Below, one piece after another: positions 516 through 42,808 of a stretch of DNA of 64,000 nt. The stretch is from Algoriella xinjiangensis. GTDB lineage: Bacteria > Bacteroidota > Bacteroidia > Flavobacteriales > Weeksellaceae. The notes under the pieces were generated by a model. That model was not told the origin of the DNA, did no database searches, and worked only from the letters and a program-made list of their open reading frames with translations. Positions within the stretch are counted from its first letter, which is position 1, and each line of letters starts with the position of its first letter. The translations under genes were made by a program, and so were the position numbers. Where the stretch lies: positions 248,001-312,000 of the forward strand of contig NZ_FOUZ01000001.1 in NCBI RefSeq assembly GCF_900115015.1, given 5' to 3'.

Positions 516-3500
516 TTATTTTAAAATTACAAGTTTTTCTACAGCTGCGGCAGAACCTTTACAAACAGATTCGTCCACACCTTTTACATTCACTTTGTAT
601 ATATAGACACCTTTTCCTATTTTATCTCCAAAATCATCCAAACCATCCCATTCTATCGCATATTTCCCTGTACGATATCCTTCTCGGAAAGGTTCTGCAG
701 AAACGGTTTTACGAACGGTTTTTACTAATTTACCCGAAATTGTAAAAATCTGTACCATTACATCTAACTCAGAATCACAGTTATGTTCGAAATGGAAATA
801 GGTGTTTTTTGTAAATGGATTAGGCCAATTTAACAACTTATCGATGTGTAATTGTCCCGTTCCGTTTTCCATTACTACAAAGTCTAACGCCGCAGTACTA
901 GAATTATTGTTGATGTCCCAAAATTTAAGATTTACGGTATGTTGACCAAGTTCAAGATTTTTTAATTGATACATGACTTGCCCTTTTTGATAATCTTCGA
1001 AATTTTTGTTGACACACGGATTGGCATCACCTCCATCATAATACTCATTCAACACATAAGCATCTTGTACTTTACCATCTATTGTTGCAACAATATCGTG
1101 TCCAATACTTGATCCTGTTGCATTAATTCCCGTATTATCTGTTAAACAACCTACCAAATAAGGCGAACGATCTGTAATTCCACCATCAGCAAAATGTAAA
1201 TTATTCATGTATAATTTTCCTTGCGGACGTTCGTCATCATTTAAACCTTCTGCATTAATTCCTTCAATTTTTACAGTTTTTAATGACGAAGCATCTTTTT
1301 TATTGGTTTCGTCGTAGGCATAAAATTTAATTTTACGATCGCCAGCTTCGTAATTAATATCTTTTGGAACATAAAACTGAATGGTAAATTCGCCATTCTC
1401 TACTTTTCCTGTTCCTTTATAAATTGTTTTATCTTCTGTAACAAACGTTTTATTTACATAATTTGATTCTGATAAAATCTTATTCGTTTCTGGTTTCTCA
1501 AATAAACTAACTGTTATTTTACCTTTAAAACTAGCGTCAATTGTAGCAGAATTTAATTGATTTATATTTCCTTTTATCGTTACAAAATCTAATGCTTGCA
1601 AAGTACCACCAGCTAAAACATCTACATCTTTTTTGGTCTTGATACTTTCTATTATAATATCTTGTTGTGGACGATGAGTAGACAACATAGGATCGCCTAA
1701 AATACTGACACTTTTATTATTAGTATGTGAAGGAGAATAAGTTAATTTCGCAGCATTAAGTGCATGACCGATTGATTGATTTTCTTCACCAGATTTTTTA
1801 AAGAATTCTTTAATTAAATAGGTGTTCATATCATCTCCATAGCCCGTACCAATTGGTCGATTGGTTGTAATCATTGCTAAGGCACCACCATTTGGATTCT
1901 TTAACATTGTTTCTCCTGCCGAATTATATTGTGGTAAATCCCAAATTGTAAAATCACAAGTAACTGTTGTTACAATTGGTAATCGCGAATATGCTGCATT
2001 AAAATTAGAAAGATTTGCTAATTCTTCTGCTGTAATAATACGCTCTTGTGCCCAACTACGTGGTCCACCATGACCATAATACATCAAGAAATTAGAACCT
2101 AATTCGATTCCATTTAATATTGCTTGATTTACGCTTGGATAACGCACACCTGCAGAGGTTGCTTCTGGTTGATGAGCACCCGTATATATTTTATTAACTG
2201 TATAAATTTGATTCTCTGGCTTATTAAATTCTGCATCTAATGCTTTATCAAAATTAGGTGTATTTACATTATTGTCATTATCCGTAACACCAACTATTTT
2301 TGTACGCCAATCGCCATAAGAAGACCCTTTACCTGCAACTTTATCGTAATATGAAATAATTTTATCTACTAAAACTTTTGCTTCTGTTGTATTAGCTGCC
2401 GCAATTCTACCTACGGCTAAATCAAACCAATGCGCATCATAACCATAAATACCATCTACATTATTAGATAACATGACAACATCATTTTTTATCATTGCAA
2501 AATAATCATCTGTTGCAATTGCTCCCTCTATTTTTTCTGAAGGCACGTCGATAAATGTTGGAATAAAAGTTGTAAATTCTTTTACTCTATTTTTTGGATC
2601 ATACGTTGCCGCGCCAAATAATAAACCATATTCTAAATTTGGGTTATTATTATCTTTTAGAAATTTAAAAAAATCTCGAATTGCAATTGGATCTTGTGAA
2701 CCAGACGAAAAATCATTGTAAACTTGATCCGTCGTTACAACACCAACTTCTATATTATCATGTGTTTTTCTGAACTGAGCCAAACGATTTGCTTGTTCTA
2801 TAAACTTTGGATGCGTAACAATAATGTAGTTTAAATTACTTAACGACCGTATATTTTGATTCGGAACTCGGCCTACATAATCAATCGTTGTAAAAGCATT
2901 TTCCTCTTTAAAAGCAACAAATTCATTTGGTAAAATTGTTTGATATTTATACGTCGTTCCTTCTGGTTTTATACTTGATATTTGATGAATATCAGCAACA
3001 TTCCAAACATTTATATTAGATGAATTTTGAAGCGTAAATGCATTAATTCCACTATTTGCAGCCGTTTCTAAAAAACGAAATGTAAACTGCTCATTATTAT
3101 AAACTAAATTATCTTTGAAACGAAGTTGTAAATAGTCTAAAAATCCTAATCCCGACGGATTTGAACCATTTGAGGTAACTGAAATATCAATTGTATTCGA
3201 AGTAAGTGAAATTGGATTATCTACCTCTGTTCTAAAAAATGCAGAACTTCCTAAACTTCCAGTAAAATTTTGTCCATTAATCCCTACAGTAAAACCATTG
3301 CTATTTGCATTTTTACCAACAACAGCATATCTCAAAAAAGCTTCGCCTCCATTTACTACAGAATTCGCTTTAAATGTTTTCTTGAAACCTCCATTTATTC
3401 CTAAGTTATCGCCAACCCAAGTTTGTCCTAAACCATTTAAATTAATCGAATCTTTCTCGTGAAATTGTAAATTATCAAACTGAGAATATGTTTTTACTGC

Positions 3501-6193: not shown

Positions 6194-6229
6194 AAAAAAT
6201 CGCGGTGAAAATTTCATCGCGATTTTTTT
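6194..6229 (+). terminator. Rho-independent terminator after gldJ
   Basis: The arms AATCGCGGTGAAA and TTTCATCGCGATT pair with one G-T wobble, and a run of T follows. It lies about 20 bases after the gldJ stop. Confidence 0.85.
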
Positions 6230-18946: not shown

Positions 18947-18974
18947 AAAAATCCCTCCATTGGAGGGATTTTTT
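18947..18974 (+). terminator. Terminator of the HU gene
   Basis: AAAAATCCCTCCA pairs with TGGAGGGATTTTT with almost no loop, followed by T residues. Confidence 0.9.
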
Positions 18975-23293: not shown

Positions 23294-24499
23294 TTAAAAT
23301 TTGATTAACTCAAAAAAATCTCGTTTACCAATTTTTATTTTAGTTCCCGAAACTAATTTTAAATCTTGCAAAGGATCGATTATTTTTTCACTATTAATTT
23401 GAACCGCTCCGCTTTCTATTAATCGACGAACTGCTGTTTTTGATACACTATTTTTCAAATGATGACAAATTTCTAAAACTGTTAAACTTTGATTATTAAA
23501 TATTCCAATATTTACAGCCTCAAAAACTCTATTTTCATCATCTCTTTTCTGAAATTGATTATTAAAAAACTGCTCCGCATCATTCCCTAACTCTACAGAA
23601 TGATATTGTGAGATAATATTTTTAGCGATTAACTTTTTAATATTCATCGGATTTTCACCTTCATCTAATTGTTTTGTCAACGCTTCTTTTTCATCCACAG
23701 AAAAATCTGTTGCCAAAGCAAGATATTCGGTCAATAAATCATCAGGAATAGACATCGTTTTTCCAAACATTTCTGTTGGCTCATCTGTCAATCCGATAAT
23801 ATTATGTAGAGATTTACTCATTTTTTCTTTTCCATCCGTTCCGCGCAACAAAGGCATACACATTACAATTTGTGCGGCATCGCCATTCGTTTCTTGCAAC
23901 TGACGTCCCATTGCACAATTAAACAATTGATCCGTACCCCCCATTTCTATATCCGCTTTTATCTGAACAGAATCAAACGCTTGTAAAATTGGATAAACCA
24001 ACTCGTGCATCGCGATTGGTGTATTTTCAGTAAAACGTTTATTAAAATCATTTCGATGCATTAATTGTGCAACCGTAACTTTAGACAACAACTGTATAAC
24101 TTCTGTAAAAGGTAGTTTATCTAACCAATCAGAATTATAAACAATCTCGGCTTTATTTACATCAATAATTTTAGATAATTGTTTGATATATGTTTCTGCA
24201 TTAGCTTTTACATCAGCTGCATTCAGAGGTTTTCTACTTTTATTTTTACCAGTCGGATCGCCAATTTGAGCGGTAAAACTACCTACCAAAATTACAATTT
24301 GATGTCCTAAATCCTGAAATTGTTTCAATTTTTTAAGAACCACCGCATGTCCCAAATGTAAATCTGGTGCAGTTGGATCAAAACCTAACTTAATTCTTAG
24401 TTTTCGATTTTCTTTTTCGGCTAATTTCAATTTTTCATCTAAACCATTTTCTGGTAAAAAAATTGAAACGTTTTCTTTTAAACTTTCTAAATTCTCCAT
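23294..24499 (-). CDS. tyrS: Tyrosyl-tRNA synthetase
   Basis: 401 residues from ATG 24499; the longer frame would start inside the terminator hairpin upstream. Class I synthetase signatures are HLGH (residues 48-51, in DPTAPDLHLGH) and KMSKS (about residue 226). VGSFTAQIGDPTGKNKSRKP is a bacterial TyrRS segment, and the C-terminal S4 domain ends with SGTKIKIGKRDFFELIKF. It charges tRNA-Tyr. Upstream lies a Tyr-rich leader ORF and an intrinsic terminator, so expression is probably controlled by attenuation in response to Tyr-tRNA supply (described in the leader features). Confidence 0.96.
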   Translation of the reverse strand: MENLESLKENVSIFLPENGLDEKLKLAEKENRKLRIKLGFDPTAPDLHLGHAVVLKKLKQFQDLGHQIVILVGSFTAQIGDPTGKNKSRKPLNAADVKANAETYIKQLSKIIDVNKAEIVYNSDWLDKLPFTEVIQLLSKVTVAQLMHRNDFNKRFTENTPIAMHELVYPILQAFDSVQIKADIEMGGTDQLFNCAMGRQLQETNGDAAQIVMCMPLLRGTDGKEKMSKSLHNIIGLTDEPTEMFGKTMSIPDDLLTEYLALATDFSVDEKEALTKQLDEGENPMNIKKLIAKNIISQYHSVELGNDAEQFFNNQFQKRDDENRVFEAVNIGIFNNQSLTVLEICHHLKNSVSKTAVRRLIESGAVQINSEKIIDPLQDLKLVSGTKIKIGKRDFFELIKF

Positions 24500-24513: not shown

Positions 24514-24546
24514 ATAAAAAAAGCCCGAGCATTTCTGCCCGGGCTT
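24514..24546 (-). terminator. Attenuator terminator in the tyrS leader
   Basis: On the minus strand AAGCCCGGGCA (24536-24546) pairs with TGCTCGGGCTT (24521-24531) with one C-A mismatch, then seven T follow. It ends about 17 bases before the tyrS ATG. It cannot end an upstream protein gene, because the next gene upstream is divergent. It therefore ends a transcript that starts in the tyrS leader. Confidence 0.85.
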
Positions 24547-24577
24547 GTAAATTATGATGATAATATTGCGTACGTTT

Positions 24578-24673
24578 TTAATACGAAGTATACACATAGT
24601 TTACCCGAGCAAATATTGTACGATAATAAGTGCTAAAAAATGGTAAACGTAATATGTGTTGTAAAAACTTCAT
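24578..24673 (-). CDS. Tyrosine-rich leader peptide of tyrS
   Basis: An ATG-started frame of 31 codons with Tyr at 16, 17, 26, 28 and 31; it begins MKFLQHILRL and ends NYVYTSY before TAA. Five Tyr in 31 residues, four positions from the same codon TAT in the second half, is far above normal. It sits between a TACCTTTG promoter box and the attenuator. Codons 22-24 contain GCTCGGG, which can pair with CCCGGGC of the first terminator arm (one G-U pair), so it could act as an antiterminator when a ribosome waits at Tyr16-Tyr17. The start is only 8 bases after the promoter box, so the mRNA is nearly leaderless. Confidence 0.75.
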   Translation of the reverse strand: MKFLQHILRLPFFSTYYRTIFARVNYVYTSY

Positions 24674-24681
24674 TAGTTATG

Positions 24682-24689
24682 CAAAGGTA
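24682..24689 (-). promoter_or_regulatory. Promoter -7 box (TACCTTTG) of the tyrS leader
   Basis: A perfect TAnnTTTG box on the minus strand, 8 bases before the leader ATG. No convincing -33 TTG at normal spacing. Confidence 0.65.
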
Positions 24690-42770: not shown

Positions 42771-42808
42771 AACAAAAAACGCGCAACAATTGTTGCGCGT
42801 TTTTTGTT
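42771..42808. terminator. Bidirectional terminator between ndh and a lipoprotein gene
   Basis: A perfect palindrome centred at 42789: CGCGCAACAATTGTTGCGCG with A and T runs outside, useful for both converging genes. Confidence 0.92.

Follow-up and report, generated by a model that had tools for sequence, protein, structure and literature searches.

In a 64,000-nucleotide stretch of the Algoriella xinjiangensis genome (the window), a gene encoding a tyrosyl-tRNA synthetase (TyrRS) is preceded by a short open reading frame with Tyr codons and by an intrinsic terminator. Based on the comparison of homologous loci, this leader is very probably a ribosome-mediated attenuator that would sense a shortage of charged Tyr-tRNA and switch on the gene behind it, which encodes an accessory TyrRS. 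The parts of the element, their conservation, its mutually exclusive pairings and a constraint on the amino acid sequence of the leader peptide can all be read from the sequences. Control of tyrS by the supply of Tyr-tRNA had already been suggested in a first-pass annotation of the window, and it is the best-supported reading of our data: two adjacent Tyr codons are invariant in 52 of 52 aligned leaders and the antiterminator pairing is present in 97 of 97.

Leader layout and association with an accessory tyrS gene

The features of the locus are:

24682 to 24689, minus strand: promoter box TACCTTTG of the Bacteroidota –7 type, 8 nt 5′ of the leader ATG (24673)
24578 to 24673, minus strand: leader ORF of 31 codons, MKFLQHILRLPFFSTYYRTIFARVNYVYTSY, with Tyr at codons 16, 17, 26, 28 and 31
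24623 to 24670, minus strand: codons 2–17, stretch constrained at the amino acid level (MKxLNxILRLPFFSxYY), as judged by pN/pS
24653 to 24658, minus strand: CACATA, 5′ arm of P0 in the protector hairpin, partner at 24598–24593
24642 to 24648, minus strand: GTTTACC, 5′ arm of P1 (region 1), from duplex test, minimum free energy (MFE) folds and alignment
24631 to 24634, minus strand: AGCA, 5′ arm of P2, partner TGCT at 24611–24608
24623 to 24628, minus strand: control codons Tyr16–Tyr17 (TAT TAT), both Tyr in 52 of 52 leaders
24604 to 24610, minus strand: GCTCGGG in codons 22–24, antiterminator strand (region 2), also within P2 and P1
24593 to 24605, minus strand: GGTAAAC and TATGTG, 3′ arms of P1 and P0, from folds and alignment
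24537 to 24543, minus strand: CCCGGGC (region 3), 5′ arm of the terminator and partner of the antiterminator, complementary to GCTCGGG at 24610–24604
24516 to 24546, minus strand: intrinsic terminator of 11 bp with a loop of 4 and seven T, the hairpin itself at 24546–24521
23294 to 24499, minus strand: accessory tyrosyl-tRNA synthetase with HLGH and KMSKS, ATG at 24499

The first-pass annotation had described the box, its spacing of 8 to the ATG, the 31-codon frame with five Tyr codons and the hairpin with seven T, all of which were confirmed base for base. The same holds for the complementarity of GCUCGGG in codons 22–24 (24610–24604) to CCCGGGC of the first terminator arm (24543–24537). The leader stop codon is followed after 31 bases by the terminator hairpin, and the T run ends at 24516, 16 bases before the ATG of tyrS.

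Transcription usually starts a few bases after a –7 box. Of 95 distinct regions upstream of the leader, 84 have a box resembling TAnnTTTG at a distance of 5–12 nt from the start codon, compared with 20 of 791 control windows, which overlap each other and were taken downstream. From this position we infer that the leader mRNA starts at most a few bases from the ATG, so that the ORF would be nearly leaderless. For Flavobacterium psychrophilum, the main text of one study gives 5.5% of the examined mRNAs as leaderless (PMC9723704).

The first-pass annotation had correctly called the gene a TyrRS gene, and its accessory nature had gone unnoticed. The genome of A. xinjiangensis carries two TyrRS genes, the products of which are only ∼30% identical to each other, and the one in the window is the second, accessory TyrRS beside a housekeeping enzyme that lacks the leader: in the region upstream of the housekeeping gene (L166), neither leader nor terminator was found on reading. 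The solved structures nearest to the window TyrRS are 6bqy, 1h3e (which we take to be the Thermus thermophilus enzyme) and 6byq; those nearest to the other TyrRS are 6n0w, 6hb5 and 2ts1 (presumably that of Geobacillus stearothermophilus).

The association between leader and gene is close. A Tyr pair, GYTCGG and a terminator are found upstream of tyrS in 113 of 115 fetched loci, among which some species occur twice and 97 leader sequences are distinct; a terminator is present at each of the 113 leader loci. One miss is the A. xinjiangensis housekeeping TyrRS locus (L002). The other is L025, which on reading carries the same leader with GTG instead of ATG as start codon. A homologous leader precedes the gene in all 80 named relatives (79 with ATG, and L025 with GTG), which are the best 80 of 165 confirmed related stretches and share 69–81% identity. 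They comprise 78 Flavobacteriales (58 Weeksellaceae and 20 Flavobacteriaceae) and one Sphingobacterium and one Rufibacter, i.e. one case each from Sphingobacteriales and Cytophagales.

A family sample of 197 genomes gave a corresponding picture. TyrRS genes of the window type occur in 44 of them (E of 1.2e-175 or better), and two TyrRS matches are given for all 44 carriers, with the place of the second known only among the matches listed. A DNA pattern for LPFFSxYY matched 42 of the 197 genomes, in 40 cases directly upstream of the accessory tyrS. The four carriers lacking a match (G044, G049, G064, G162) show the leader on reading. The two matches among the 153 genomes without the gene (G010, G165) lie elsewhere and outside any leader frame and are not leaders; a reversed control pattern also matched occasional genomes. 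A pattern for LRLPFF only was unspecific, with matches in 241 of 386 genomes and controls of similar size. In G049 (L146), where the other parts of the element are retained, the leader has just one Tyr codon (SEYLLP), as if the Tyr pair had been lost naturally.

In an order-level sample, the gene was found in 22 of 395 genomes, all from two genera of the window's family. Outside the Weeksellaceae the accessory tyrS is patchy, the cases in Flavobacterium and other genera coming from the search for named relatives only. A gene tree, made with a quick method, without outgroup and with many open forks, placed one Chryseobacterium (L065) apart from the others and together with Sphingobacterium, and Gelidibacter in three places; these placements suggest transfer between genera with the leader attached. 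None of the 13–14 largest clusters of flanking ORFs was common across genera. Since each is confined to one genus, the accessory tyrS looks like a stand-alone unit of leader plus gene. Among 113 PLSDB records with a match, no plasmid copy above 60% identity was found. A TyrRS type with 44–48% identity occurs elsewhere in the phylum; among the matches listed, none of the 14 upstream regions that were read contains the leader, 13 are without a terminator and one (L164) has a single weak hairpin. Upstream of one such gene, 47% identical (L158, in G405), an ORF with GTG start, MKSCERTIIFYNRILTTKYYYHVSTAK, contains Tyr-Tyr-Tyr, overlaps the tyrS start and is followed by no terminator; it may be due to chance or represent another design.

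Constraint on the Tyr codons and on the leader peptide

Codons and peptide were compared in 52 aligned leaders less than 90% identical to each other. The first-pass annotation had listed five Tyr codons and named a lack of their conservation as a result that would speak against its reading. Conservation is seen for the pair Tyr16–Tyr17, found in all 52 leaders and extended by Tyr18 in 18 of them, and it is lacking for Tyr26, Tyr28 and Tyr31, which are present in only 6, 7 and 4 leaders, respectively. A difficulty raised by that annotation, that a ribosome stalled at Tyr26 or Tyr28 would cover GCUCGGG, is removed, because these codons are not conserved. Codon 16 (24628–24626) is TAT in all 52 leaders, whereas codon 17 is split between TAT (30 leaders) and TAC (22); the fixed TAT at codon 16 possibly reflects RNA pairing or an effect on decoding.

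Conservation extends upstream of the Tyr pair. The residues K2, L4, N5, I7, L8, R9, L10, P11, F12, F13 and S14 are found in 43 to 52 of the 52 leaders, encoded by varying codons. The pN/pS ratios, which are pairwise, non-independent and hence descriptive, are 0.18 for codons 2–17 and 0.09 for codons 7–14, and 0.96 and 1.13 for codons 18–22 and 25–27. At codons 2, 4, 5, 8, 12, 13 and 14, which belong neither to the P1 arm nor to the Tyr pair, the ratio is 0.07; it is 0.58 at codons 3, 6 and 15. As judged from these comparisons, selection acts at the amino acid level on the chain MKxLNxILRLPFFSxYY and ceases after Tyr17. In this respect the constrained peptide resembles an arrest peptide, hinting that it may help to stall the ribosome.

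Leaders of his and trp genes from the same family served as controls. Among 60 genomes, 28 have hisG and all have trpE-like genes, the latter never scoring above the family model's curated cut-off; 30 trpE-like loci were fetched. A leader with a run of His codons (HH) precedes 26 of the 28 hisG genes, and one with a run of Trp codons (WW) 26 of the 30 trpE-like genes. Terminators were detected at these loci, though not at each of them. Like the Tyr leader, these attenuators consist of a short ORF with control codons followed by a terminator, but their runs of up to six His or three Trp codons come after residues with little conservation (amino acid identity 0.15–0.16 and 0.28–0.36), whereas the Tyr leader has only two to three consecutive Tyr codons after a conserved chain (0.73–0.85). 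For the four residues before the run, pN/pS is 0.86 in his, 0.51 in trp and 0.17 in tyr leaders, at amino acid identities of 0.16, 0.36 and 0.73. The ratios for six residues are 1.03, 0.69 and 0.20, a comparison limited to the 13 his and 25 trp leaders of sufficient length (out of 26 each). A cross-genus subset of 19 Tyr leaders gave 0.19–0.20. Judged by these sequences, attenuators based on codon runs are ordinary in Weeksellaceae, and the Tyr leader is set apart by its conserved chain. The trp leaders may be under a weak peptide constraint of their own. The contrast suggests that attenuator peptides can be selected for their sequence and not for control codons alone.

Two leaders of the control type were observed in the genome of A. 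xinjiangensis itself, both on the reverse strand. Upstream of hisG (L202), a His leader, MFTNQLHHHHHHTCTQASR, near position 1313 of the reverse complement is followed by a terminator, and the same arrangement is seen upstream of the trpE-like gene (L231), with the Trp leader MKTLFTNNWWWFIEQQNVGS near 1077 of the reverse complement. Many trp leaders of the family share an Asn ahead of the Trp run, perhaps reflecting a weaker peptide constraint.

An amino acid constraint that reaches up to Tyr17 and not beyond, and that his leaders lack and trp leaders show weakly, would also fit a ligand-dependent arrest peptide, in which ILRLPFFSxYY halts the ribosome when a small molecule such as an antibiotic is present and the Tyr residues are merely part of the chain. 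We consider this quite unlikely: the gene behind the leader encodes the synthetase for Tyr-tRNA, both invariant codons are Tyr codons with a third one added in 18 of 52 leaders, and no ligand is known.

Alternative RNA structures and the position of the ribosome

The 164-nt leader folds with –41 kcal/mol, compared with a mean of –22.5 kcal/mol for shuffled sequences (z = –5.95), and none of 200 shuffles was as stable. Conservation of the GCUCGGG/CCCGGGC pairing in relatives, which had been named as a check of the attenuator, was found in 97 of 97 leaders: six of the seven pairs are kept in all of them and the seventh in 72. One pair is UA in 63 leaders and CG in 34, a compensatory exchange that amounts to only two changes on the gene tree and therefore too few for a sign test. 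The covariation score of the antiterminator in the 52 aligned leaders was reached by none of 500 shuffles. GYTCGG starts at nucleotide 64, 65 or 67 of the ORF, and its codon frame is 0 or 1 depending on the species. Since the motif is kept despite the differing frame, the constraint lies on the RNA and is not a by-product of the peptide. The competing terminator is paired in 97.9% of cells (52 leaders), and four of its pairs are changed on both sides in some sequence.

The first-pass annotation had suspected that further segments take part in the folding. Such segments exist in the form of a long hairpin within the leader-coding region, composed of P0, P1 and P2, that can hold GCUCGGG. In the window, this protector hairpin takes up most of the leader ORF and carries the Tyr codons close to its tip. 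Of the P2 cells, 97.2% are paired (97 leaders), and of the P1 cells 83.8%, the latter in an alignment that misaligns arms of the GGA type. Duplexes of P1 arms from the same leader have a mean energy of –9.6 kcal/mol, compared with –8.2 kcal/mol for swapped arms (0 of 1000 permutations), and at least four P1 pairs appear in 42 of 52 MFE folds. Compared with synonymous recodings of codons 8–11, the natural P1 has a median rank of 6% and a mean rank of 24% (52 leaders); for five of the 52 leaders, more than 80% of the recodings pair as well as the real P1. P0 is paired in 84.8% of cells in the 34 leaders with GCUCGG (C-type), where one pair changes from A-U to G-C, and in 47.9% in the 63 leaders with GUUCGG (T-type). 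The partner of GUUCGGG in several T-type folds is a CCG or CCCG stretch close by. RNAalifold applied to the alignment returned the terminator only; support for the other helices comes from predefined structures, folds of individual leaders and duplex tests.

We then modeled how a ribosome on the leader would shift these pairings, assuming that it covers 13 nt on the 5′ side and 15 nt on the 3′ side of the first P-site base and cutting the RNA before the second terminator arm. Without a ribosome, the mean probability of the antiterminator in the 52 leaders is 0.51. It rises to 0.99 and 0.91 with Tyr16 and Tyr17 in the A site and drops to 0.15 at codon 19 and 0.00 at codons 22 and 26, with 0.37 at the stop codon. 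The model thus agrees with the earlier proposal that a pause at Tyr16–17 would free GCUCGGG and onward translation would cover it. Blocking codon 10, codon 13 or the first 29 nt gave 0.82, 0.78 and 0.70, respectively, and a downstream control block 0.47. Because early blocks also raise antitermination, Tyr16–17 is about the last permissive position and not the sole one. In the free state, the ensemble of the truncated RNA favors the antiterminator in 26 of 52 leaders, including that of the window, for which the predicted probability is 0.95. Here the off state must depend either on a moving ribosome covering GCUCGGG or on earlier formation of the hairpin, and for A. xinjiangensis this value is the weakest point of the model.

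The ORF could conceivably act just by being translated, through coupling, RNA protection or delivery of ribosomes, without any sensing of amino acids. This is very unlikely, since the invariant Tyr16–17 lie at about the last position that leaves GYUCGG free and all 97 leaders retain the mutually exclusive pairings.

A T-box riboswitch that reads uncharged tRNA-Tyr, as at tyrS and tyrZ of Firmicutes, would regulate the same class of gene by the same logic, yet the leader is filled by an ORF under amino acid selection, and we give a T box next to no chance. Neither a T box nor another Rfam element matched the window at the gathering threshold. The T box was also absent among 17 Rfam matches up to E = 1 in seven loci, where the matches overlapping the leader were below gathering, with a best E of 0.0011.

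Proposed mechanism and comparison with known systems

For an attenuator that responds to charged Tyr-tRNA, we infer the following course of events, from the start of transcription through stalling and read-through to the physiological signal and the help of the nascent chain. Transcription would begin just 5′ of the leader ATG. With ample Tyr-tRNA, the ribosome would pass Tyr16–17 and cover GCUCGGG or let the P0/P1/P2 hairpin refold; with GCUCGGG covered or held in this way, the terminator would form before tyrS. With Tyr-tRNA in short supply, the ribosome would wait at Tyr16–17, keeping the 5′ half of the hairpin open and leaving GCUCGGG just free, which would then pair with the first terminator arm so that polymerase reads through into tyrS. 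The conserved nascent chain MKxLNxILRLPFFSx probably makes a pause at only two Tyr codons effective. In this way, a failing housekeeping enzyme would lead to induction of the accessory synthetase.

Going one step further, the leader might be a hybrid sensor, with an arrest chain tuned to stop at the two Tyr codons only if incoming Tyr-tRNA is lacking or of poor quality (uncharged, or carrying a Tyr analogue such as D-Tyr), switching on a horizontally spread TyrRS that is more selective or resistant to inhibitors. We regard this extension as tentative and rather doubtful. If true, it would join a codon-run attenuator and an arrest peptide in one element. If the accessory TyrRS were resistant to inhibitors or D-Tyr, this would make the leader an inducible switch for resistance or quality control.

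The closest known logic, by analogy, is that of an auxiliary TrpRS of Streptomyces, which is reportedly under ribosome-mediated attenuation. There as here, a second synthetase exists beside a housekeeping one and is preceded by a leader-peptide attenuator with codons for its own amino acid. The Streptomyces case concerns Trp in Actinobacteria and the present one Tyr in Bacteroidota; here, moreover, the residues preceding the control codons are shared across genera and orders, and a role in resistance is only a possibility. Comparable by analogy is also tyrZ of Bacillus subtilis, said to be under control of a T box and MarR. Both are accessory TyrRS genes controlled via the charging of tRNA-Tyr, but at tyrZ the T-box RNA reads the tRNA, whereas here the translating ribosome would do so; the likeness drawn here concerns their regulation. 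Attenuation of amino acid and aminoacyl-tRNA operons is reportedly treated by Lopatovskaya et al. 2010, who may predict related cases.

The TyrZ enzyme of B. subtilis is described, in the part of the source considered here, as highly selective for L-Tyr (PMC9437257). Candidate attenuators have been proposed for trpS and leuS of Streptomyces and for pheST of gamma-proteobacteria, which likewise combine a leader peptide containing codons of the cognate amino acid with a terminator before a synthetase gene; no tyrS case is found among them in the sections of that study covered here (PMC1262725). Within the same phylum, leader-peptide attenuators have been proposed in F. psychrophilum for amino acid biosynthesis operons, and structured 5′ regions at aminoacyl-tRNA synthetase genes are mentioned as well; the attenuators described in the main text include no tyrS leader (PMC9723704). 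Leader-peptide attenuation as such has thus been proposed for a flavobacterium before, and what appears to be new is an amino acid constraint that ends at the control codons. The close link of an accessory tyrS to such a leader, as a Tyr case in Bacteroidota, also appears to be new: among the papers listed by our literature searches, none concerned a Tyr leader of tyrS in this phylum. The element would provide a concrete case of Tyr-dependent peptide attenuation in a phylum with little-studied RNA regulation.

Two further observations concern other elements. In a Weeksella locus (L058), a TPP riboswitch (RF00059, above gathering) lies upstream of the accessory tyrS on the opposite strand, at 1113–1217 (minus strand). 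Bidirectional terminators are likely at 42779–42800, 18950–18970 and 6200–6222 of the window, where inverted repeats are accompanied by T runs on either strand.
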